Shown here one piece after another: positions 2,889-38,026 of a DNA stretch of 42,988 bases (the stretch's first letter is position 1; each line of letters begins with the position of its first letter). The notes beneath the pieces are model-generated. The model ran no database searches. It was given only the letters and a program-made list of their open reading frames with translations, and had not been told where the DNA came from. Source of the DNA: a virus. A program made the position numbers and the translations under genes. The stretch spans positions 1 through 42,988 of IMG/VR virus record IMGVR_UViG_3300005613_000130; one strand, given 5' to 3'.

Positions 2889-3140
2889 ATGGATAAAAAA
2901 GTTTTAACATCTGAAGAAATTCAAAATTTAAAAGAGCTTAAACAAGGTTTTTTTGATTTAACTTCTAATTTAGGAAATATAGAAATTCAAATTATGAATT
3001 TAAATTTAAAAAAAGAACAGCTCAAATCAAATTTGATTCAACTTCAGGAACAAGAACAAGTTTTAGCTAATCAACTAGAAGAAAAGTATGGAAAAGGTTC
3101 CATTTCTTTAGAAACTGGTGAGTTTTTGCCCCTAGAATAA
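2889..3140 (+). CDS. Small coiled-coil protein, unknown function
   Basis: This 83-aa protein is almost entirely predicted helix, with heptad-like spacing of Leu/Ile between residues 10 and 65 (NLKELKQGFF, IQIMNLNLKKEQL) and a short GKGSISLETGEF tail. I do not recognise a family. It sits between the gp15-like gene and the sheath gene, where T4 has the terminase genes 16 and 17, but it lacks the helix-turn-helix look of a small terminase. The sequence ATATGTATAAG just before its ATG is a one-base variant of the late motif. Confidence 0.75.
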   Translation: MDKKVLTSEEIQNLKELKQGFFDLTSNLGNIEIQIMNLNLKKEQLKSNLIQLQEQEQVLANQLEEKYGKGSISLETGEFLPLE

Positions 3141-4967: not shown

Positions 4968-6449
4968 TTATCCTTTGAACATCCATTTAGTGTTTCCCGA
5001 ATCCCAAACCCTTTTCCATCCGTTTGCAATCATATTTTGATATTCGGACTTATCAACATCAAAATTTTCTAATAATTTGGGAAGTTTATGTTTTTGACAA
5101 GACATTCTATTTAAAACCTTAGAATCTTTCCAATAAATGTATGAGGGTGTAGTGTTTTTACTAAATTCAAATCCCAATGTTTTATATAAATTCCCATTAA
5201 AAAATCTCCTATCTGAAAAACTAATTATTGGGAAATTATCGTTATTAAAATATTTGTTAAAATGTTTAAATAATTTAGAGGCTGCCCCCACAACATTAGT
5301 GTTTAATAAATTGCAAAACCTAACCATTTCCCATTCATTTGAATTTTTTTTAAATCTATTTTTAGAAAAGGTCATTATTGATACTAAATCTTCCCCCTCA
5401 TATAGTCCTAAATTAATTGAAGCGTGGGTATAACCCTGGATGTGGTTAGAATCAAGAAAGTTTCTAACAAGTTTAATATCTTCAATTTCTTTAATTACAC
5501 ACTTACGAGCATATTTTTTTTCTTGGTTGCTTTGTATTTTATTGCGGATTATGGATTGGATAATAGGTTTTTTATATATCCACTCAAAATCTAAAACATG
5601 AATTAACTCTATACCTTTTTCTAAACATTTTTCGGTTTTAAATAAGTGGTAATCTCTATATTTACCCATAGATTCCGAATGCCAATATACCCCATTCACT
5701 TCAATTGCTAATTTATGAGAGGGAATAAACATGTCTAACTCTAATCTGTTGGGTAATATATCTCGTCTGTTAGTGTAGATTTTATCACTCCCAATTATAC
5801 CAGAAATAAATACCAATATTTCCTCCTCAACCAAAGAATACCCATAAAAGTCAGAACACTTACATGAAGGTAAATATCCATTACTTAAAAATACCTCAGT
5901 AACCTCACCACAATTCTCACATTGAAATTTAAATTTATTTTGGTATTTATGGTTTAGTTTATTATCCATCAAATATTCTCTATCAAATAATGGTTTCATT
6001 TTACTTACTTGATAATAATTAAGAATTTTTTCCCACTTAACATCTACAAAATTCTTTCGAGGATATTTTTTATTTTTTAAAGCTTTAGATATTTTATTAG
6101 CTATTTCTTTGTTTTGGGAAGCTACTTTATTCCCATATCTATCTTGAATTGTGTTTATAGCCTTTTCTTTAATTTCTTTTGATAGAAATGGGTTAGATAC
6201 CCCATATTTTTCTGTTAAATTTTTCTTGTATGTTTCTTGAACCTGATCAGATTGGAAAGCGTTTTTAACTCCATATTTTTCTATACATGTTTTTTCTCTT
6301 TTTTCTAGCCAACTTTTATCTTTTCCCTTATATTGCTGGGCACATGGTTTAGTACAAAACTGCCTTTTTTTCAAAGATGGAATTACTTCAAATTCTTGGT
6401 TACAATTTAAACATGTTTTTTTTATTTTTGTTCCTTTAGGTCTAGCCAT
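4968..6449 (-). CDS. Free-standing homing endonuclease, Vsr-like/EDxHD type, on the opposite strand
   Basis: This 493-aa protein is the only clear minus-strand gene in the window, inserted between the sheath and tube genes. It begins with a zinc-finger-like segment (CLNCNQEF, then FCTKPCAQQY), followed by two or three repeats of the EKYGVxNxFxS type, found in phage endonucleases. Around residues 220-285 there is a nuclease core, LELDMFIPSHKLAIEVNG and YWHSE, then HLFKTEKCLEKGIELIHVLD, as in Vsr-related homing endonucleases. A CxxC pair (CENCGEV) lies just before it. The last about 180 residues look like a separate GNAT-like domain (LGLYEGEDLVSIMTFSKNR, then IISFSDRRFFNG) that often accompanies these nucleases. 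It shares the terminator at 4942-4965 with gp18 and has its own late motif upstream. It is expected to spread by cutting DNA near the sheath/tube junction of related phages. Confidence 0.8.
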   Translation of the reverse strand: MARPKGTKIKKTCLNCNQEFEVIPSLKKRQFCTKPCAQQYKGKDKSWLEKREKTCIEKYGVKNAFQSDQVQETYKKNLTEKYGVSNPFLSKEIKEKAINTIQDRYGNKVASQNKEIANKISKALKNKKYPRKNFVDVKWEKILNYYQVSKMKPLFDREYLMDNKLNHKYQNKFKFQCENCGEVTEVFLSNGYLPSCKCSDFYGYSLVEEEILVFISGIIGSDKIYTNRRDILPNRLELDMFIPSHKLAIEVNGVYWHSESMGKYRDYHLFKTEKCLEKGIELIHVLDFEWIYKKPIIQSIIRNKIQSNQEKKYARKCVIKEIEDIKLVRNFLDSNHIQGYTHASINLGLYEGEDLVSIMTFSKNRFKKNSNEWEMVRFCNLLNTNVVGAASKLFKHFNKYFNNDNFPIISFSDRRFFNGNLYKTLGFEFSKNTTPSYIYWKDSKVLNRMSCQKHKLPKLLENFDVDKSEYQNMIANGWKRVWDSGNTKWMFKG

Positions 6450-6566: not shown

Positions 6567-7055
6567 ATGGCAGTATTAGATCCAAATGAAATATTCTTCA
6601 CGGCATTTGAACCCAAACAGCAAAACAGGTTCATTATGTACATAGATGGTTTCCCCGCATATATTGTTAAAGGGGTTTCTGCTATCACTTTAACCCAAGA
6701 TGAAGTAGTATTAAACCACATTAACATTTATAGAAAAGTAAAAGGTAAATCAAAATGGAGTGATGTAACATTTACTTTATTTGATCCTATTACTCCATCA
6801 GGAGCACAAGCTGTAATGGAATGGGTCCGTTTACACCATGAATCTGTAACAGGTAGAAATGGATACTCAGACTTTTATAAGAAAGACTTAACTTTTAATG
6901 TATTAGGTCCAGTAGGTGATATTGTTTCTGAGTGGGTTATTAAAGGTGCTTTTATTAAAGATGCAAACTTTGGTGAATATAGTTGGGATAATGAAAGCGC
7001 AGCTCAAAATATTAGTATGGCTGTTGGTATGGATTATTGTGTATTGAATTTCTAA
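6567..7055 (+). CDS. gp19: Tail tube protein, gp19
   Basis: This 162-aa protein matches the length of T4 gp19 (163 aa) and has the tube-protein pattern: RFIMYIDGFPAYIVKGV near the N terminus, then DEVVLNHINIYRKVKGKSKW, SDVTFTLFDPITPSGAQA, a VMEWVRLHH helix, and a C-terminal GAFIKDANFGEYSWDNE. Hexamers of this protein stack to form the inner tube through which DNA passes. It is the next tail gene after gp18 in T4 too; here the two are separated only by the inserted minus-strand endonuclease. A terminator follows. Confidence 0.93.
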   Translation: MAVLDPNEIFFTAFEPKQQNRFIMYIDGFPAYIVKGVSAITLTQDEVVLNHINIYRKVKGKSKWSDVTFTLFDPITPSGAQAVMEWVRLHHESVTGRNGYSDFYKKDLTFNVLGPVGDIVSEWVIKGAFIKDANFGEYSWDNESAAQNISMAVGMDYCVLNF

Positions 7056-7080
7056 AATATTTAGAAAACTTTTTAAAGGG

Positions 7081-7106
7081 AACTTGGCTTTGCCAAGTTT
7101 TCTTTT
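7081..7106 (+). terminator. Rho-independent terminator after gp19
   Basis: An 8-bp stem (AACTTGGC / GCCAAGTT) with a TTT loop is followed by TTCTTTTT. It falls inside the first codons of an open frame starting at 7037, which argues that the following gene starts later, at 7145. Confidence 0.9.
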
Positions 7107-7107
7107 T

Positions 7108-7120
7108 ATATTTATGTTAT
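7108..7120 (+). promoter_or_regulatory. Late promoter-like motif before small membrane protein
   Basis: ATATTTATGTTAT directly follows the gp19 terminator and precedes the ATG at 7145 by 24 bases. It is a looser copy of the late motif. Confidence 0.4.
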
Positions 7121-7144
7121 TGTAAACCTTTAAAATTTAAAATT

Positions 7145-7450
7145 ATGGAATTAATGTATTTTTGTTTTGGCATTCTAGCAAGTGTAGTTGTTGGTATGTT
7201 TGTAACTATTATCAATAACCAAAAAACTATTAGAAATCTAAATCATCAAATAGATTCATTATCTATTGATCTAAACAATTACATATTAGATAATGATAGA
7301 CGAGTAGATACTGATGTAGAACATCTTCACCGAACAATGGATAATTATAGAGATGAAAATTTTAAGCACACATCTGAGAAATTTGAAGCTATGAAAGGGT
7401 GGATTAAGAAAGAATTTGATACCAAACAAATTCAAAGCAATACTTATTAA
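7145..7450 (+). CDS. Small membrane-anchored coiled-coil protein, unknown function
   Basis: The start at ATG 7145 (101 aa) is chosen because the longer frame from 7037 overlaps gp19 and runs through a terminator. Residues about 3-22 form one hydrophobic membrane segment (MYFCFGILASVVVGMF). The rest is hydrophilic and helical (IRNLNHQIDSLSIDL, then a Asp/His/Lys-rich part), so it is probably N-terminally anchored with a cytoplasmic or periplasmic coiled coil. No family recognised. It sits in the tail operon, but nothing in it looks like a tail component. Confidence 0.7.
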   Translation: MELMYFCFGILASVVVGMFVTIINNQKTIRNLNHQIDSLSIDLNNYILDNDRRVDTDVEHLHRTMDNYRDENFKHTSEKFEAMKGWIKKEFDTKQIQSNTY

Positions 7451-24799: not shown

Positions 24800-25351
24800 A
24801 TGAATAAAATTGATAAATTAGGGGTGATTGTTCAAGAAGAAATCAAAAGATTTTTTCAAACTAACCCATATAATTTAAAAGATAGACTCATATTAGAGAA
24901 TGAAATCATACTAGGGGAACTCCTCAACCCTGACAATGCTTTACCATATTCAGGAGATAAGGGATGGTTTTACTATACTGACCCTCAAGGGGTTGAATTT
25001 TTTGTTAGGGCCTTTTACAACCCTACTCGTGATTATATAGAATTAAAAACAGGATGGTTAGATGATGATGGGAAACCTACTTATGAGCCTTCAGTACCTT
25101 ATGGAAATAAAAAAACCAACACTAAAGATATCCACTCAAGATCAGATACTGTAGCTAAAATTTATAGAGATGAAATTTTACCTTTCTTTGATTTACAAGA
25201 TTTAAGTGATATCTTAGTTATAGATCCTATATCCTCTAGTAGAAGTAAGTTTTCTGAAAGACTAGTAAACAAATTTACCCCCCAAGGTAAGTATGATATA
25301 GAAAAAGACAGATTAAAAATTATAATAAGAAAAAAATCAAATGGACAATAG
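24800..25351 (+). CDS. Hypothetical protein between nrdB and nrdA
   Basis: This 183-aa protein starts right after the small frame above and overlaps the start of nrdA by 11 bases, so it is part of the nrd operon. The middle reads GDKGWFYYTDPQGVEFFVRA, then YNPTRDYIELKTGW; the C terminus is basic (KDRLKIIIRKK). No catalytic motif or membrane segment recognised. Position suggests co-expression with ribonucleotide reductase but does not show a function. Confidence 0.7.
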   Translation: MNKIDKLGVIVQEEIKRFFQTNPYNLKDRLILENEIILGELLNPDNALPYSGDKGWFYYTDPQGVEFFVRAFYNPTRDYIELKTGWLDDDGKPTYEPSVPYGNKKTNTKDIHSRSDTVAKIYRDEILPFFDLQDLSDILVIDPISSSRSKFSERLVNKFTPQGKYDIEKDRLKIIIRKKSNGQ

Positions 25352-28169
25352 TTTAACAGCCGATACAACACAATGGGTAGTAGGAAAAGACTACCCTGAA
25401 TATTACGATGAAGTAGCTCTATCAACTATTTCTAAAGGATACCTCTTACCAGGAGAAACCCCAAGAAAAGCATTCAGAAGAATATCTAAAGCAGTAGCAG
25501 ATAGACTTAATCGCCCTGACTTAGAAAACAAATTCTTTAAATATATTTGGAATGGATGGATTGGGTTAGCCTCTCCTGTTTTATCTAATATGGGAACTGA
25601 TCGTGGTCTGCCTATATCATGTGTGACTGGAGATACTTGGATTAACACTTTGGATGGGGTAAAAAGGGCAGATCAAATAGAAATAGGAGATAAAGTTTTA
25701 ACCCATAAGAATAGATTTAGGAAAGTTACTAAAATAATTCCTACTAAACAAAAAGGGGACATATACGAATTGCAAGTTAGAACTCGAACTACTAAACTCC
25801 ATATTACAGGAAACCATTTAGTATTAACTAATACAGGATGGAAAAGAGTAGATGAGTTAGATCCTAAAAAGGATTTAATAGCAACTAATGCTAGCATTAA
25901 TTTTGAAACTTCTATCAAAGATAATTTTTATTTAAATATACAAGATTATATTTCTAAAGATGATTATCTAATTGAAGGGAATACTTTAATTAATAAAAAT
26001 AAAAAACATACAGGGGGAGATAATATAAATAATAAAATAAAAGTTACTCCTGAGTTAATGTGGGCTTTTGGTTTATGGTTAGCTGATGGAACTATTAACA
26101 TACAAAAAGGTACCCCCTGCACTATCAGTTTAGTGTCCAACTTAAGTAAGGAAAAAGATTTAAGTTTTAAATGGGCTAATATAATCAAATCCCACTTTAA
26201 TTTAAATTATGCTACCCACGAAGTAGATTCTCAAAACTGTATTCATCAACATTTCTCTAATAGATTTATTGGGAAAGCTTTTTATGAAATTTTTAATCAT
26301 AAATTTGATAAAAAACGTATTCCTAGTTGGGTGTTTGATCTTCCTAAAGAACATCAATTAAAGTTATTAGAAGGGTTTTATGAAGGAGATGGTAATAAAG
26401 CTGGAAGGGGGGAAAGATACCAAATAACTATAGCTAATCCTGAGTTGTTATCCCAATTATTTTATATTGCCCTTAATAATGGAAATTTATGTTCATTAAA
26501 TCTTAAGGAAAAAGCCTCTAAAAAAAGTTCTAAACCTAATAATTATACTTTTTCTTATTTAGATACTGAACAAACTATCCAAAGGCAAAAAGATTATTTT
26601 GGAATTCCCTTCACAGATGGAAATAGATATTGCAATATAAAATCTCTAAAGAAAACTAATTTAATTAAAGATGTATTTGATTTCACTGTCGAAGAAGATC
26701 ATTCATTTAGTTGTGCAGGAGTAATAGTCCATAATTGTTTTGGTATTGACACTCCAGACTCAATTAGAGGTATTGGGTTAACTAATGCTGAATTAATGAA
26801 ACTTACAGCTTTAGGGGGAGGGGTTGGCATCTCTGTTTCCCGAATCCGCCCACGAGGAACCGAAATTCGGGGTAATGGTAAATCTGAAGGTGTAGTACCC
26901 TGGTGTAAAATTTATGATTCCGCTATCATAGCCACAAATCAAGGCTCAGTCAGAAGAGGTGCCGCTTCTGTTAATTTAAATATCAACCACCCAGACATTA
27001 AAGAATATTTACAGATCAGAAGACCTAAAGGAGATCCTAACCGTCAATGTTTAAATCTTCATCAATGTGTTGTTGTGGATGACTCTTTTATGAGAAAACT
27101 CTACGATAGAGATGGAGAAGCTATGTCATTATGGCTAGAGATACTTAAAACCCGTGTAGAAACAGGTGAGCCATATATCATGTTTAAGGATAATGTTAAT
27201 AAAAACAATCCTTTAGCTTATATGATGAATAATTTGGATGTTTCGATGACCAATATTTGTACAGAAATAACACTCCATACCGACGAAGAACATTCATTCA
27301 TTTGTTGTTTATCTTCTTTAAATTTAGCCAAATATGATGAATGGAAAGATACAGATGTAGTAGAGACTGCTATTTACTTTTTAGATGGTGTAATGCAAGA
27401 ATTTATTGATAAAAGCAATGGTAAAGAATCTATGATTCGTACTCACCGCCATGCTAAAAAAGGTAGAGCCTTAGGTTTAGGTGTAATGGGGTGGCATTCT
27501 TTACTTCAACAAAAAGGCTTACCATTTAACTCAATAGCCTCAACTGCTTGGACTCATACTATTTTTAGTGATATTAGAAATAAAGCCGAAGCTACTTCTA
27601 GACAACTAGCTCAAGAATATGGTGAGCCTTTATGGTGTAAAGGTACAGGTATGAGAAATACTCATCTTCTAGCTATAGCCCCCACTGTATCTAATTCCAG
27701 GATTAATAATTGTTCAGCAGGTATTGAACCAATTCCAGCAAACATATATACATTTAATGGGGCTAAGGGTACATTTATCGTTAAAAATAAAGAACTTGAA
27801 ACATTATTAGAATCTAAAGGACATAATACTGAAAAAATATGGGATCAAATCTTATCAGATAATGGTTCAGTACAGAACTTACCAAATGAAATCTTAAGTG
27901 AAACTGAGAAAGAAGTATTCTTAACATTTGCTGAAATCAATCAATTAGGTTTAGTTCAACAAGCAGCTATTAGACAAAAATATATTGATCAAACTCAATC
28001 TTTAAATTTAGCATTTGCACCTACTGATTCTCCAAAGTTTATAAACTTAGTCCATATGGAAGCATGGCGTTTGGGAATAAAAACCCTATATTATTTAAGA
28101 ACTGATTCAGTAATTAAAGGAGATTTAGGGTCACGTACAAGTGAAGGTTGTTTAAGTTGCGAGGGTTAA
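25341..28169 (+). CDS. nrdA: Ribonucleotide reductase class I large subunit, NrdA, with intein
   Basis: The 942-aa precursor contains an NrdA extein of about 570 aa split by an intein of 372 aa (residues 94-465). Extein landmarks: SKGYLLPGETPRKAFRR, GLPIS joined to CFGIDTPDSI after splicing (the active-site cysteine equivalent to E. coli Cys225), MTNICTEITLH (Cys439), CCLSSLNL (Cys462) and the C-terminal thiol pair CLSCEG that takes electrons from thioredoxin. The protein reduces ribonucleotides. At 570 aa it is much shorter than E. coli or T4 NrdA (over 750) and the N terminus lacks room for an ATP-cone, so overall activity is probably not shut off by dATP. Activity depends on intein removal. 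Confidence 0.93.
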   Translation: MDNSLTADTTQWVVGKDYPEYYDEVALSTISKGYLLPGETPRKAFRRISKAVADRLNRPDLENKFFKYIWNGWIGLASPVLSNMGTDRGLPISCVTGDTWINTLDGVKRADQIEIGDKVLTHKNRFRKVTKIIPTKQKGDIYELQVRTRTTKLHITGNHLVLTNTGWKRVDELDPKKDLIATNASINFETSIKDNFYLNIQDYISKDDYLIEGNTLINKNKKHTGGDNINNKIKVTPELMWAFGLWLADGTINIQKGTPCTISLVSNLSKEKDLSFKWANIIKSHFNLNYATHEVDSQNCIHQHFSNRFIGKAFYEIFNHKFDKKRIPSWVFDLPKEHQLKLLEGFYEGDGNKAGRGERYQITIANPELLSQLFYIALNNGNLCSLNLKEKASKKSSKPNNYTFSYLDTEQTIQRQKDYFGIPFTDGNRYCNIKSLKKTNLIKDVFDFTVEEDHSFSCAGVIVHNCFGIDTPDSIRGIGLTNAELMKLTALGGGVGISVSRIRPRGTEIRGNGKSEGVVPWCKIYDSAIIATNQGSVRRGAASVNLNINHPDIKEYLQIRRPKGDPNRQCLNLHQCVVVDDSFMRKLYDRDGEAMSLWLEILKTRVETGEPYIMFKDNVNKNNPLAYMMNNLDVSMTNICTEITLHTDEEHSFICCLSSLNLAKYDEWKDTDVVETAIYFLDGVMQEFIDKSNGKESMIRTHRHAKKGRALGLGVMGWHSLLQQKGLPFNSIASTAWTHTIFSDIRNKAEATSRQLAQEYGEPLWCKGTGMRNTHLLAIAPTVSNSRINNCSAGIEPIPANIYTFNGAKGTFIVKNKELETLLESKGHNTEKIWDQILSDNGSVQNLPNEILSETEKEVFLTFAEINQLGLVQQAAIRQKYIDQTQSLNLAFAPTDSPKFINLVHMEAWRLGIKTLYYLRTDSVIKGDLGSRTSEGCLSCEG
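25620..26735 (+). mobile_element. Intein with LAGLIDADG (DOD) homing endonuclease inside nrdA
   Basis: The element runs from Cys94 (CVTGDTWINTLDG, splicing block A) to Asn465 (GVIVHN, block G), followed by extein Cys466. Block B is visible as TKLHITGNHLVLT with its histidine, and block F as FDFTVEEDHSFSCAG. In between lie two endonuclease motifs, AFGLWLADGTI near residue 242 and LLEGFYEGDGN near 342, so it probably still has a homing nuclease. Both splice-site residues needed for standard Cys1/Asn-Cys+1 splicing are intact. The insertion is exactly before the active-site cysteine, a strongly conserved site. Confidence 0.93.
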
Positions 28170-31143: not shown

Positions 31144-31653
31144 ATGTATAAAGTATTTGATAAAATCAATGAAAAATTAGTTTTATCTGAGATTCAAAAG
31201 CTTAAACCTCTTAAATACAACCAATTTTATTGGTGGAGGCGCTTTGCTCCCAAAAATTCTCCTCTTTCTAAAAATGCCCCTTTATGGGATATGATTGTTA
31301 ATGGTGATTTAGATTTTTCTCATTATTATTGGCAAGCCCTCTACTCAGAGATAGAAATCAATGAGAAGTACAAAAGATCCAAAGATCACCACATGTATTT
31401 AGAAACCACTTCCATCGATAGAGAACGTCGTGCTAAATTATGGGCAGATTTTGAAAAAGATGAAAAAGCAAAACTTGCACTTATCAAAAAATTATTCCTT
31501 AGAAATTTCTTTATCACATCAGAAGAATATGAAAAAGAAATCATCAGTTTTGGAGATGATTTAAGAGAGTTTTATCTTTATTGTAAATTAACTTATGGTA
31601 AACGACAAGTAATTCCTTCTCGTCGAGGCAGACCACCAAAAAAGAAAAAATGA
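31144..31653 (+). CDS. Hypothetical basic protein at the head of the deazaguanine operon
   Basis: This 169-aa protein is rich in Lys, Tyr and Trp (YNQFYWWRRFAPKNSPLS, DFSHYYWQALYSEIEINEKY) and ends in a short AT-hook-like tail, RRGRPPKKKK, that could bind the minor groove of AT-rich DNA. The stop codon overlaps the ATG of the DpdA-like gene (ATGA), so the two are translated together. A DNA-binding partner of the transglycosylase is a reasonable guess but unproven. No known family recognised. Confidence 0.65.
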   Translation: MYKVFDKINEKLVLSEIQKLKPLKYNQFYWWRRFAPKNSPLSKNAPLWDMIVNGDLDFSHYYWQALYSEIEINEKYKRSKDHHMYLETTSIDRERRAKLWADFEKDEKAKLALIKKLFLRNFFITSEEYEKEIISFGDDLREFYLYCKLTYGKRQVIPSRRGRPPKKKK

Positions 31654-32438
31654 GAGTATCGCACGAATTTCCTATTGATTATTTAAAAGAAGGTCAACAA
31701 TATATTGATTACGAGTTTTGTTTACCTCATCTTTTAGATCAAAGCGATAAATACAAAGAATATTTTTTAGAAGCCAAACAAAAGGGTCGTTATATTATAA
31801 TGGATAATTCTCTACATGAGTTAGGTGAACCCTATTATGCAGATAGACTTTATTATTGGCTTAATAGTTTGGAACCCAATGAATTTATAGTTCCTGACTA
31901 TTGGGAGGATGTAAATGCTACACTAGTTACGGCTAAAGAGTGGATTAATAGAAAAATTCCTACATCTATTACACTAATGGCTGTAGTTCAAGCCAGTAAT
32001 AAATTTGATGCTATCAGATGTTATGACATATTAAAAACTCAAGGCTATAAAAAGATTGCATTTTCATATGGAGCTAACTGGTACTATCAAGAAGGCTTAC
32101 CCACCACCCCAGATAAAAACAACAAGCTTTTAACCAAGGGGCATGGTAGGTATAATTTTATTAAGGAATTATATGATAAAGGCTTAATAACTAATAATGA
32201 TAAAATCCATCTATTAGGATGCAACTTACCCCAGGAATTTGCATTATTTAAAGAATTATCTTTTATTGATACTATTGATACTTCTAATCCTGTAATCCAT
32301 GGTTTAGCTGGAATTAAATATGAAGATTATGGTCTATTAGATAAAGTTCTACATAAAGTAGACCGTTATGTAGGAGATGAAGATAATTGGGATATTGTTG
32401 TACATAATATAAACAAATTTAAAACATTTATAAAATAA
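31650..32438 (+). CDS. dpdA: DpdA-like DNA 7-deazaguanine transglycosylase (TGT superfamily)
   Basis: This 262-aa protein resembles the short phage relatives of tRNA-guanine transglycosylase. MRVSHEFPIDYLKEGQQYID opens the chain; DNSLHELGEPYYADRLYYWL and FIVPDYWEDVNATLVTAKEW follow. MAVVQASNKFDAIRCYDILK, IAFSYGANW and IHLLGCNLPQEFALF come next, then IDTIDTSNPVIHGLAG, where an Asp could be the nucleophile. In such phages DpdA-type enzymes exchange guanine in DNA for preQ0 or a relative. The linked queC, queD, queE and folE genes strongly support this function over tRNA modification. It is smaller than the cellular DpdA. The catalytic assignment by eye remains tentative. Confidence 0.68.
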   Translation: MRVSHEFPIDYLKEGQQYIDYEFCLPHLLDQSDKYKEYFLEAKQKGRYIIMDNSLHELGEPYYADRLYYWLNSLEPNEFIVPDYWEDVNATLVTAKEWINRKIPTSITLMAVVQASNKFDAIRCYDILKTQGYKKIAFSYGANWYYQEGLPTTPDKNNKLLTKGHGRYNFIKELYDKGLITNNDKIHLLGCNLPQEFALFKELSFIDTIDTSNPVIHGLAGIKYEDYGLLDKVLHKVDRYVGDEDNWDIVVHNINKFKTFIK

Positions 32439-33326: not shown

Positions 33327-33584
33327 ATGAATAAAGGAATTTTATTTTTTAGTGCCCCATGGTGTTCAGCCTGTAAACAGATTGAACCTAAAGTAGATAT
33401 TTTAATATCAGAGGGTGTTCGTGTAAACAAAGTTAATTGTGATTATGATGCTGTAATGACAGAACGTTATAAAATTAAAAGCATTCCTACTTTAATTTTA
33501 ACCGATCTACAAGGTAATGAGATCAAGAGAATGGTTGGAGCCCAATCTAATTTACAACAATTAAAAGAATGGTATAATGGGTAA
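33327..33584 (+). CDS. Thioredoxin-like protein
   Basis: The 85-aa product begins NKGILFFSAPWCSACKQIEP, with the active-site CSAC, and carries the cis-proline motif IKSIPTLIL. It is a minimal thioredoxin that may reduce the NrdA C-terminal cysteine pair. An upstream in-frame ATG at 33261 would add 22 residues and overlap queC, but those residues do not look like thioredoxin, so the later start is preferred. The gene overlaps the truncated queD by 8 bases. Confidence 0.85.
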   Translation: MNKGILFFSAPWCSACKQIEPKVDILISEGVRVNKVNCDYDAVMTERYKIKSIPTLILTDLQGNEIKRMVGAQSNLQQLKEWYNG

Positions 33585-33846
33585 TATACAATATATTAGC
33601 CGAAAGGGTAATTTTGACTCAGGCCATAGAGTTATGAATGAACGTATGAAATGTTTTAACATTCATGGTCATACTTATCTTTATGAGCTTACATTCTCAT
33701 TTGAAAATATGGAAGAGATTGGTTATGCAATTGATTTTAAAGAAATTAAACGTGTATTTTGTCAATGGATAGATGATATTTTTGAATTCCATAATATGTA
33801 TAATAAAATAATATTATGGAAACAAAAAATACTAAAAATTGTATAA
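33577..33846 (+). pseudogene. queD: Truncated queD (N-terminal part only)
   Basis: The 89-aa frame matches the intact QueD gene at 34456 over its first about 62 residues, including the zinc ligands and catalytic cysteine region (SGHRVMNERMKCFNIHGHTY). It then leaves the QueD pattern after VFCQWIDDIF, ending in residues that belong to no family. It lacks the C-terminal half with the catalytic His/Asp/Glu, so it cannot be a working QueD by itself. An HNH endonuclease gene begins inside its 3' end and the intact queD follows. In the 45 codons from HRV to RVF, two differ in amino acid and 23 differ synonymously from the intact copy. Confidence 0.8.
33794..33808 (+). promoter_or_regulatory. Late promoter-like motif before the HNH endonuclease
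   Basis: ATATGTATAATAAAA has one mismatch (G for T) to the ATATTTATAATAAAA motif and lies 7 bases before the HNH ATG, inside the 3' end of the truncated queD. Confidence 0.45.
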
Positions 33847-34463
33847 AATGCAATGTAGAGAAAAATATTGAAAGTTTTGGAAAAGATAAATCGAGAAAAG
33901 ATGGTTTAAAATATAAATGTATTGAATGTGATAGACAATTTCAAAAATTCATGTATTCAAAACATAAAGATAAACACAATCAATATATGAAAGAATGGTA
34001 TCAAAATAATAAAGATACACATAAAAAAAAATCAAAAGAATGGGTTAAAAATAATATTGAAAGAAATAGAGAAATTCAAAGTAATTATCGTAAAAATAAT
34101 TTAGAAAAAGTTAGAGATTATGATAATAATTGGAAAAAAGAGAAAAGAAAAAAAGATTTAAATTATAAAATTAAAGTTATTTTAAGAGAAAGAATAAGAG
34201 ATGGGTTAAAAAATAATTATAAAAGAGGTAAAGTATTAGATCTTCTAGGTTGTTCTATTGAAGAATATAAATTATATTTAGAAAAAAAATTCAAAAAAGA
34301 CATGAATTGGGGTAATTATGGAAAATATTGGGAAATAGATCATATAATTCAACTTCATACTTTTGATTTAACTAAAATTGAAAACCAAAAAATAGCTTTT
34401 AATTATAAAAATACTCGACCATTAACAATACAACAAAATAGACAAAGAAAAAAATATGAATAG
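33816..34463 (+). CDS. HNH homing endonuclease
   Basis: This 215-aa protein is Lys/Asn-rich and more AT-biased than its neighbours. The N terminus has a zinc-finger-like pair, NCIKCNVEKNIESF and YKCIECDRQF. A long basic helical linker follows (KHKDKHNQYMKEWYQNN). The nuclease core is at the C terminus: KYWEIDHIIQLHTFDL with the HNH-type Asp-His, then AFNYKNTRPLTIQQNRQRK, where NxRPLxxxxNxxK is typical of HNH enzymes that act on phage genomes. It is inserted between a truncated and an intact queD and overlaps the intact queD start by 8 bases. Confidence 0.85.
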   Translation: METKNTKNCIKCNVEKNIESFGKDKSRKDGLKYKCIECDRQFQKFMYSKHKDKHNQYMKEWYQNNKDTHKKKSKEWVKNNIERNREIQSNYRKNNLEKVRDYDNNWKKEKRKKDLNYKIKVILRERIRDGLKNNYKRGKVLDLLGCSIEEYKLYLEKKFKKDMNWGNYGKYWEIDHIIQLHTFDLTKIENQKIAFNYKNTRPLTIQQNRQRKKYE

Positions 34464-35034
34464 AAAAACAATACAATATATTACTCAAAAAACCAATCTA
34501 GATTGTGGGCATAGAGTTATGAATGAACGCATGAAGTGTTTTAATATTCATGGACACACTTACCTAACAGAATTAACTTTTAGTTTTGAAAGTATGGAAG
34601 AAATAGGATACGCAATAGACTTCAAGGAGATTAAGAGAGTATTTGTTCAATATCTTCAAGACTATTTAGATCATGGTATGATTTTAAACCCACAAGATCA
34701 TGCTCTTATAAATACTACCCGTGAATATGGTTCTAAATTGTGGTTGATGTCCTTAAATGGGGAGGAAGGTTATTGCAATCCATCAGTTGAAAACATTGCT
34801 AAAGAAATATTTATAGCAATGCATATTTTATCTGATACTCTTTATCAAGATACTCCAACTGGATTGAAAATTCATAAAGTTAAAATTTATGAAACTCCTA
34901 ATTGTTGGACAGAATGTTTTAAAGAAAGTATTTCAAAAGAAGAATTAATTAATTTTGGAACGGTTCGTCAAGAAGAAATTATCGCTTATGCTAAAGATAA
35001 GGGAGTAATTGAATACGATGATAGAAAAATATAA
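34456..35034 (+). CDS. queD: QueD, 6-carboxy-tetrahydropterin synthase
   Basis: This intact 192-aa QueD turns dihydroneopterin triphosphate (made by FolE) into carboxy-tetrahydropterin, the second step to preQ0. Zinc ligands and the catalytic Cys are in CGHRVMNERMKCFNIHGHTY. The middle motif YAIDFKEIKRVF precedes YLDHGMILNP with the catalytic-type Asp-His, and PSVENIAKEIF and VKIYETPNCWTE carry the C-terminal Glu. It starts inside the end of the HNH gene (8-base overlap), so translation may be coupled. Its codons differ from those of the truncated copy at about half of shared positions although the proteins are nearly the same. Confidence 0.93.
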   Translation: MNRKTIQYITQKTNLDCGHRVMNERMKCFNIHGHTYLTELTFSFESMEEIGYAIDFKEIKRVFVQYLQDYLDHGMILNPQDHALINTTREYGSKLWLMSLNGEEGYCNPSVENIAKEIFIAMHILSDTLYQDTPTGLKIHKVKIYETPNCWTECFKESISKEELINFGTVRQEEIIAYAKDKGVIEYDDRKI

Positions 35035-35099: not shown

Positions 35100-35114
35100 A
35101 TATTTATGATAAAA
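35100..35114 (+). promoter_or_regulatory. Late promoter-like motif before GIY-YIG gene
   Basis: ATATTTATGATAAAA matches the late motif at all but one position. It overlaps a first ATG at 35106, so that ATG is likely not the start and 35121 is preferred. Confidence 0.5.
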
Positions 35115-35120
35115 TATATT

Positions 35121-35765
35121 ATGAAAATTACAAAAATATATTTAGTTAAAGGATGTTATGGTGATTGGAATAAGATTTATATAGGTAAAACTATAAATAA
35201 ATCTAGAAAAAATGATCATAAAAGGAAATATGGGTATGACATTGATTATGAGATTTTAGAGGAAATAAAGGGAGTAGATAAAAAACTGTGGAAACCCCGA
35301 GAAACCTATTGGATAAATTATTATGTAAATCTAGGTTTTGAAATTTTAAATAAACAGTTAAAAGGAGGAAGTGGTGTTGAATTTCATAGTCAAAAAACTA
35401 AACAAAAAATCTCTCAATGGAGAAAACAAAATAGAATTAGAGTGAGAAAAGATATTGAATCTAAAAAAGATGAAATAATTGAACTTTACTTAGGTGGGTT
35501 AGGACCTCATAATTTAGGAAAAAAATTTCAATGTCATCCTGATGTTATTAAAAGGATTTTAAGAGAAGGCAACATTAAATTCAGAACCCCTTCAGAATCC
35601 CAAAAATGTAGAAAAGGAGAAAAAAGAAGAAAGGATATTTGGGGTAGGATTAGTGAAATAAAATCCTTATATTTACAAGGTAAAAACTACACAGAACTAG
35701 GTAAAATTTTTAATACTAGTGGTGTTCAGATAAAAAAAATGTTAAAAAAAGAAGGCTTATTATGA
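35121..35765 (+). CDS. GIY-YIG homing endonuclease with DNA-binding repeats
   Basis: From ATG 35121 this gives 214 aa; an in-frame ATG at 35106 lies within the promoter motif. The N-terminal nuclease domain reads TKIYLVKGCYGDWNKIYIGK with catalytic-type features of GIY-YIG (YL, YIGKT, then RKNDHKRKYG and the Glu in PRETYWINYY). The C-terminal half has two helix-turn-helix-like units (ELYLGGLGPHNLGKKFQCHP and SLYLQGKNYTELGKIFNTSG) that would recognise target DNA. Inserted between queD and queE, it overlaps the queE start (ATGA). Along with the HNH gene it makes this operon a homing target. Confidence 0.85.
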   Translation: MKITKIYLVKGCYGDWNKIYIGKTINKSRKNDHKRKYGYDIDYEILEEIKGVDKKLWKPRETYWINYYVNLGFEILNKQLKGGSGVEFHSQKTKQKISQWRKQNRIRVRKDIESKKDEIIELYLGGLGPHNLGKKFQCHPDVIKRILREGNIKFRTPSESQKCRKGEKRRKDIWGRISEIKSLYLQGKNYTELGKIFNTSGVQIKKMLKKEGLL

Positions 35766-37330: not shown

Positions 37331-38026
37331 ATGATAATATATTTAACTACCAATTTAGTAAATAAAAAACAATATATAGGTAAAGATAGAAACAATAACC
37401 CCCATTATTTAGGTGGGGGTGTTCTTCTTAAAAAAGATATTAAAGTTTTTGGAAAATCAAAATTTAAAAAAGAAGTACTTGAAATTTGTTCTTCCATTGA
37501 AGAATTAAAACAAAAAGAAGTATATTGGTTAGAATATTTTAACGCTTCTGAAAATTCTAATTTTTATAATTTAACTAATAAAAGTGGAGGAAGTGATAAA
37601 GGTCCTACCAAAACTTTACTTTACCTAAATAGAGGAAAAAGTATTTCTAAATCTAGAAAGGGCAAAACCTACCCTTTAGCAAGTGAAGCTCAAAAGAATA
37701 TTAAAAAATCTAAAGTTAGTAAAGCTTTAAAAGGTAAACCTAAAAGTGAAGAACATAAAAAAAACCTAAGTGAAAGTAAAAAAGGTATATCTAGTAAAAG
37801 AAAAGGTAAACCTGATCATAAACAAAGAGGAGTCCCAAAACCCGGAGCTGGGGGGAAAGGTAAATCTAAAGTAGGAGCTGGACCTAAAACTGGAAGGTTT
37901 ATATTAAATACTGAAACTGGAGAAGTATTTTCTTCTGTTAAGGAATGTATGGAAAAATTTGGAATACATAAAAGAAAAATGTATTTTATATTAAAAGATA
38001 AAAAAGGAAAATTTAAACACATTTAA
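37331..38026 (+). CDS. GIY-YIG homing endonuclease with NUMOD repeats (Seg-like)
   Basis: This 231-aa protein begins IIYLTTNLVNKKQYIGKD, the GIY-YIG core, followed by FGKSKFKKEVLEIC and KQKEVYWLEYFNA with the catalytic-type Glu. The middle is a very basic run of repeats with Gly/Ser/Lys (GKSISKSRKGKTYPLASEA, GKPKSEEHKKNLSESKKG) typical of NUMOD3 DNA-binding modules. The C terminus has a NUMOD1/helix-turn-helix unit (FSSVKECMEKFGIHKRKMYF). It is inserted between folE and the phosphoribosyltransferase gene, whose ATG it overlaps by one base (TAATG). Confidence 0.85.
   Translation: MIIYLTTNLVNKKQYIGKDRNNNPHYLGGGVLLKKDIKVFGKSKFKKEVLEICSSIEELKQKEVYWLEYFNASENSNFYNLTNKSGGSDKGPTKTLLYLNRGKSISKSRKGKTYPLASEAQKNIKKSKVSKALKGKPKSEEHKKNLSESKKGISSKRKGKPDHKQRGVPKPGAGGKGKSKVGAGPKTGRFILNTETGEVFSSVKECMEKFGIHKRKMYFILKDKKGKFKHI

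Follow-up and report, generated by a model that had tools for sequence, protein, structure and literature searches.

A likely homing element that replaces the 5′ end of a phage queD gene beside an HNH endonuclease gene

In the virus contig analysed here (the window: IMG/VR record IMGVR_UViG_3300005613_000130, all 42,988 nucleotides), a queD gene of the type found in a near relative, contig L013, is split at codon 70/71 by about 885 bp containing an HNH endonuclease gene and a second, diverged version of the queD 5′ end. This version is in frame with the native 3′ part, so that the two together encode a hybrid QueD of full length, and the original 5′ end remains stranded upstream. Related HNH genes elsewhere in phages have the same architecture around them, affecting either end of other target genes, and in one of these cases the recoded end and the HNH gene make up a single block common to phages with differing native parts. 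We regard the queD locus as probably a homing element by which one end of the host gene is exchanged.

The arrangement of a cut-off queD, an HNH gene and a complete queD, which a first-pass annotation had noticed, was confirmed (Table 1), and both copies match QueD/PTPS models, namely the PTPS/QueD model of Pfam (E 7.5e-17 for queD′ and 1.5e-27 for the complete queD) and TIGR03367 (E 8.5e-13 and 3.3e-18, respectively). Overlapping frames run from queC and thioredoxin through queD′, HNH and queD to queE and folE, a run that therefore represents a phage preQ0-pathway gene cluster; within it, the HNH gene overlaps both neighbours, beginning before the queD′ stop and ending just after copy 2 has started. 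The annotation was right that copy 1 is truncated, but its queD homology extends to about codon 70 rather than ending after some 62 codons, and the final ~20 residues of the ORF are insert sequence. Copy 2 keeps the reading frame and the QueD motifs and is under purifying selection. The GC content of the HNH gene is 20%, as against 31% for the window. Its product matches the endonuclease VII and endonuclease families of PHROG (E 5e-10 and 4e-9), and a Pfam search with this protein gave no match. No group I intron was found in the window by an Rfam search; queD′ and queD each have their own start and the HNH gene lies in its own frame, an organization different from that of a group I intron or an intein.

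Table 1. Features of the queD locus (window positions)
Feature	Position	Strand	Description
queD′ (copy 1) ORF	33577-33846	+	89 aa; native queD 5′ end, then insert sequence
Native part of queD′, stranded 5′ end	33577-33782	+	97.1% nt identity to L013; dN 0; sister to L013 (99/95)
Inserted element, about 885 bp	33783-34664	+	native identity stops at 33782 and is contiguous again from 34665
HNH endonuclease gene, EndoVII-like	33816-34463	+	215 aa; PHROG matches; W.IDHI motif
queD (copy 2) ORF	34456-35034	+	192 aa; complete frame, hybrid
Recoded queD 5′ end on the element (copy 2 codons 1-70)	34456-34665	+	73-74% nt identity to L013; branch of 1.41 in the 5′ tree
Native queD 3′ part (copy 2 codons 71-192)	34666-35034	+	codons 71-128: 89.1% nt identity to L013, sister (100/99)

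The L013 contig is 92% identical to the window over 4.5 kb upstream of queD, and its queD lies directly behind the thioredoxin gene, single and uninterrupted up to codon 128, where the contig ends. Over its first ~69 codons the truncated copy is nearly the same as L013 (97% nt identity), the two agreeing in every amino acid over codons 5-70, and the first 70 codons of copy 2 are diverged from it. Further on, copy 2 itself becomes L013-like: the next relative reaches only 79.3% nt over codons 71-128, and codons 129-192, which lie beyond the end of the L013 contig, are probably native as well. Comparison with a single-queD relative, which the annotation had proposed as a check, thus gives a split answer, L013 matching copy 1 up to about codon 69 and copy 2 from codon 71. 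The two window copies differ at 55 sites in codons 7-70, with L013 agreeing with copy 1 at 50 of these and with copy 2 at 4. The by-eye count over the 45 codons from HRV to RVF (23 synonymous and 2 non-synonymous differences) proved exact, and the accompanying view that the copies are not a recent duplication is supported.

Both identity switches fall on one native point (codon 70/71; L013 position 6141-6143), a shared TTT leaving the boundary ambiguous. Because the left and right switches occupy the same native position, the ~885 bp with the HNH gene and the recoded 5′ end must have been inserted into native sequence without loss, and copy 2 and native DNA are strongly different right up to the junction. 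The insertion site corresponds to the codons of the conserved Asp72-His73 of QueD, the catalytic pair of the QueD/PTPS family; the queD′ fragment lacks this pair, so that only the hybrid QueD would be active. Relative to L013, copy 2 is patchy, codons 19-32 being identical and codons 83-109 only 79% identical, which suggests extra exchange. The stretch at 34510-34553 (copy 2 codons 19-32) equals L013 even at three codons where copy 1 differs, possibly as a result of gene conversion.

Phylogenies of the two gene parts are discordant, as expected of a hybrid gene. In the tree of codons 7-70, copy 1 groups with L013 (99/95) and copy 2 stands alone on a branch of 1.41, whereas in the tree of codons 71-128 it is copy 2 that groups with L013 (100/99). 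To control for uneven conservation, the 5′-minus-3′ identity contrast was calculated over 2346 family pairs, among which the pair of L013 and copy 2 has the lowest value (-0.162; mean +0.085, SD 0.047). The trees and the family-wide contrast support a switch at codon 70/71. A single breakpoint near codon 109, suggested by a raw-identity fit to L013, results from the divergence of codons 83-109 and was set aside.

These results bear on the suggestion of the first-pass annotation that copy 2 is a complete rescue gene which travelled with the nuclease, or a gene that came from a related phage. That the HNH gene arrived together with a complete foreign queD, the rest of the native gene being lost, is unlikely: although the HNH gene is indeed followed by copy 2 as a complete frame, whose codons 83-109 are likewise diverged, codons 71-128 are far closer to L013 than to any other relative, and two junctions at the same native position would not be expected had the native 3′ part been lost. 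The ‘cut and rescue’ logic remains a good fit, but only the 5′ gene end is recoded, so that the putative rescue is a gene end fused to the native remainder and not a whole gene.

We find it similarly improbable that queD underwent an old tandem duplication, that the HNH gene later entered the space between the two copies, and that copy 2 evolved fast in its 5′ part and was otherwise kept alike via gene conversion. L013 has no second copy between thioredoxin and its queD, the fragment with its dN of 0 is unlike a long-dead relic, and truncation and divergence coincide at one point. Nevertheless, an AU test on the short alignment of the 5′ part does not reject a clade of copy 1, copy 2 and L013 (p 0.37), so that the recoded end could have arisen from an old duplicate by fast evolution instead of by transfer. 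Synonymous differences have reached saturation, and no close source of the recoded end was found in 66 viral loci, 9 genome loci and a phage collection, the best matches outside L013 reaching 72-80% nt by segment. Active selection for dissimilarity between the copies was considered and rejected: the synonymous difference over codons 33-63 (20/28) ranks among the highest 7% of pairs but does not exceed that of unrelated pairs, so saturation suffices to account for it.

Replacement of a gene end next to an HNH gene is not confined to queD. HNH-family profiles yielded 160 viral loci, and 178 HNH places were screened for gene pieces repeated on both sides, a procedure that detects only fragments of about 16 or more codons in contigs that are partly redundant. 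An exact peptide-word search of viral contigs found no relatives of the HNH protein; alignments were needed. Apart from the window, the screen of 178 places revealed three further target genes: a deaminase-like gene, Pyr_excise and a DNA ligase.

The deaminase-like gene, for which the Pfam deaminase match is only below cut-off, is of the 5′ type and was found in L188-L191, where a native 5′ fragment overlapping the upstream gene is followed by an antisense HNH gene and the full deaminase-like gene. Compared with L192, in which the gene is uninterrupted, its first ~24 codons are 59-61% identical at the nucleotide level and the remainder is 87% identical (95% aa). The Pyr_excise case, a pyrimidine-dimer-glycosylase-like gene (PF03013), is of the 3′ type. 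In L342 this gene is uninterrupted and runs into a methyltransferase gene, whereas in L335, 98.7% identical to L342 in the 5′ part, the tail has been replaced (65%) and is followed by an antisense HNH gene, the stranded native tail and the methyltransferase gene (97% identical to that of L342). The recoded tail and HNH gene of L335 are common to L340 and L341, with the tail 99.0% identical between L335 and L340, but the native 5′ part of the gene is only 73.6% identical between the same two contigs, and no long flanking similarity was found between L335 and L340/L341. The contrast between a 99% identical tail and a ~73% identical native part means that the recoded end and the nuclease moved together, and bears out the earlier proposal of a linkage between the nuclease and recoded sequence of its target gene. 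Such joint transfer is seen in the Pyr_excise case; queD has one known carrier. In the third case (L331), an ATP-dependent ligase gene is followed by HNH and, behind it, a second, diverged OB-domain tail, the two tails differing by 25 synonymous and 24 non-synonymous changes over 76 codons; judged by architecture only, this ligase would belong to the same class.

Among 17 regions of named phage records there was one weak candidate, Verrucomicrobia phage P8625 (L099), in which the C-terminal residues of the terminase occur a second time immediately after the HNH gene (2269-2313 and 3034-3078); it is possibly a 3′-type case and, if so, a fifth target gene. A repeat flanking the HNH gene of L130 was discarded, being a short motif common to two other gene products and not this architecture.

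The recurrence also makes it very unlikely that the locus is an assembly chimera of two phage strains. The window is indeed a metagenome-derived virus contig and the only one from which the queD arrangement is known, yet both sides of the insert belong to an L013-like genome, and the deaminase and Pyr_excise cases were each seen in several separately assembled contigs. Least plausible of all is a plain homing-endonuclease insertion that splits queD and carries no gene end, as in the ribonucleotide reductase genes-in-pieces of Aeh1: the HNH gene does lie inside the former queD, and phage homing endonucleases are known to split genes (PMC2988022), but a second complete in-frame 5′ end precedes the 3′ part, so the gene is rebuilt rather than in pieces, which excludes simple splitting as the full explanation.

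Other mobile elements were encountered at queD loci and elsewhere in the window. Group I introns (Rfam RF00028) interrupt queD in two relatives (L025, 6082-6315; L087, about 5749-6009), at the identical site directly after codon 32, His32 of the HGH motif, and queD is accordingly a recurrent homing target. Two more homing-endonuclease-like genes with weak PHROG homing endonuclease matches (GIY-YIG) flank queE-folE in the window (35106-35765 and 37331-38026), so that the queD cluster holds three nuclease genes; a gene end carried by the one at 35106, beside queD, was looked for and no fragment was found, the start of queE appearing ordinary. In L011, a relative of the window HNH gene (34%) is located between queD and queE (6576-7218), and its frame continues into a QueE-like start. 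The ribonucleotide reductase alpha gene of the window (25341-28169, 942 aa) matches models of intein-containing proteins over residues ~94-470, which suggests an intein, and right after it lie 455 bp absent from L013 (28175-28629), which include the greater part of an ORF of 124 aa weakly matching endonucleases. A 262-aa gene of the window (31650-32438; phrog_19058) is found beside queC in many queD loci.

Returning to the gene-end-replacing element, we propose that it spreads during co-infection. The HNH endonuclease would cut an intact queD near the Asp-His codons, and repair of the break would use the genome that carries the element as template. The stranded 5′ fragment and native 3′ part would act as homology arms, and the HNH gene and the recoded end would be copied into the recipient. 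The recoded end would remove the cut site while keeping QueD working; as it is unlike the native 5′ end, recombination that drops the HNH gene would be discouraged. Both cleavage by the HNH protein and resistance of the recoded end are predicted from sequence. Taking all loci together, we consider it fairly probable that they represent a recurrent class of phage homing elements, in which an EndoVII-like HNH nuclease spreads by exchanging the 5′ or 3′ end of a conserved gene for a recoded, cut-resistant version, the displaced end staying behind as a homology arm. Such elements would amount to a cleave-and-rescue drive occurring in nature, with chimeric phage genes as the outcome.

In the literature found, descriptions of gene-end-replacing homing concern fungi alone, in which it has been connected with how the yeast HO switch originated. 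The phage case, with another nuclease family and with 5′ as well as 3′ ends involved, points to more than one origin of the strategy. Phages are fast laboratory systems in which this form of homing can be tested. Gene-end replacement explains some chimeric phage genes, and the element offers a natural model of a cutting gene drive that keeps its target gene working.

The closest counterparts are the WHO elements at FBA1 of Torulaspora and Lachancea yeasts (Coughlan et al. 2020, PMC7282813). Like these, the queD element consists of a nuclease gene beside a hybrid full-length target with one end replaced, and has a stranded fragment of the old end, the proposed homology arm, on the other side of the nuclease. 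In terms of mechanism, a WHO-type chimeric full-length target is evident from the discordant trees and the identity contrast, and the stranded native end beyond the nuclease is queD′ (33577-33782). The carried end of WHO confers allele-specific resistance, and cleavage has been shown (PMC7282813), whereas in the window cleavage is deduced from sequence. WHO elements reside in a eukaryote rather than a phage and replace the 3′ rather than the 5′ end, and their proteins are intein/HO-like (HO/VDE-like) nucleases with zinc fingers, as opposed to an EndoVII-like HNH protein in a phage queD. By analogy, the queD element would thus work like WHO without being WHO by descent, the published model being turned round for the 5′ end. 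Comparable hybrids occur in fungal mitochondria, at atp6 of Allomyces and at atp6, atp9, cox2 and nad3 of Glomus, where an endonuclease ORF brings in a foreign gene end, which takes the place of the native end, and the latter is left behind (PMC3630166); as at queD, the native and carried ends of the Glomus genes differ mainly at synonymous sites, with few amino-acid changes. The mitochondrial hybrids, however, concern carboxy-terminal ends and LAGLIDADG or GIY-YIG nucleases.

Among phage elements, the free-standing HNH and GIY-YIG homing endonucleases of T4-like phages, such as mobE, which splits nrdA in Aeh1, share with the queD element the phage setting, the free-standing nuclease and homing with flank co-conversion, but the available portion of the review describes for them no carried recoded gene end with a stranded fragment (PMC2988022). 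The window nuclease is free-standing as well, yet differs from the T4 mob/seg type in carrying a second in-frame 5′ end. No phage example of gene-end-replacing homing was found in that portion of the T4 review, a phage HEG survey, a Skunavirus HNH paper and full-text searches, a coverage that is incomplete and in which absence is not proof. Engineered cleave-and-rescue and home-and-rescue drives (e.g. PMC7968924) likewise link a nuclease to a recoded working target; the window element differs in being natural and in having only a gene end recoded, codons 1-70, instead of a complete rescue gene. The strategy itself is known from fungi, and what differs here is the phage setting, the use of HNH nucleases and the replacement of a 5′ end.
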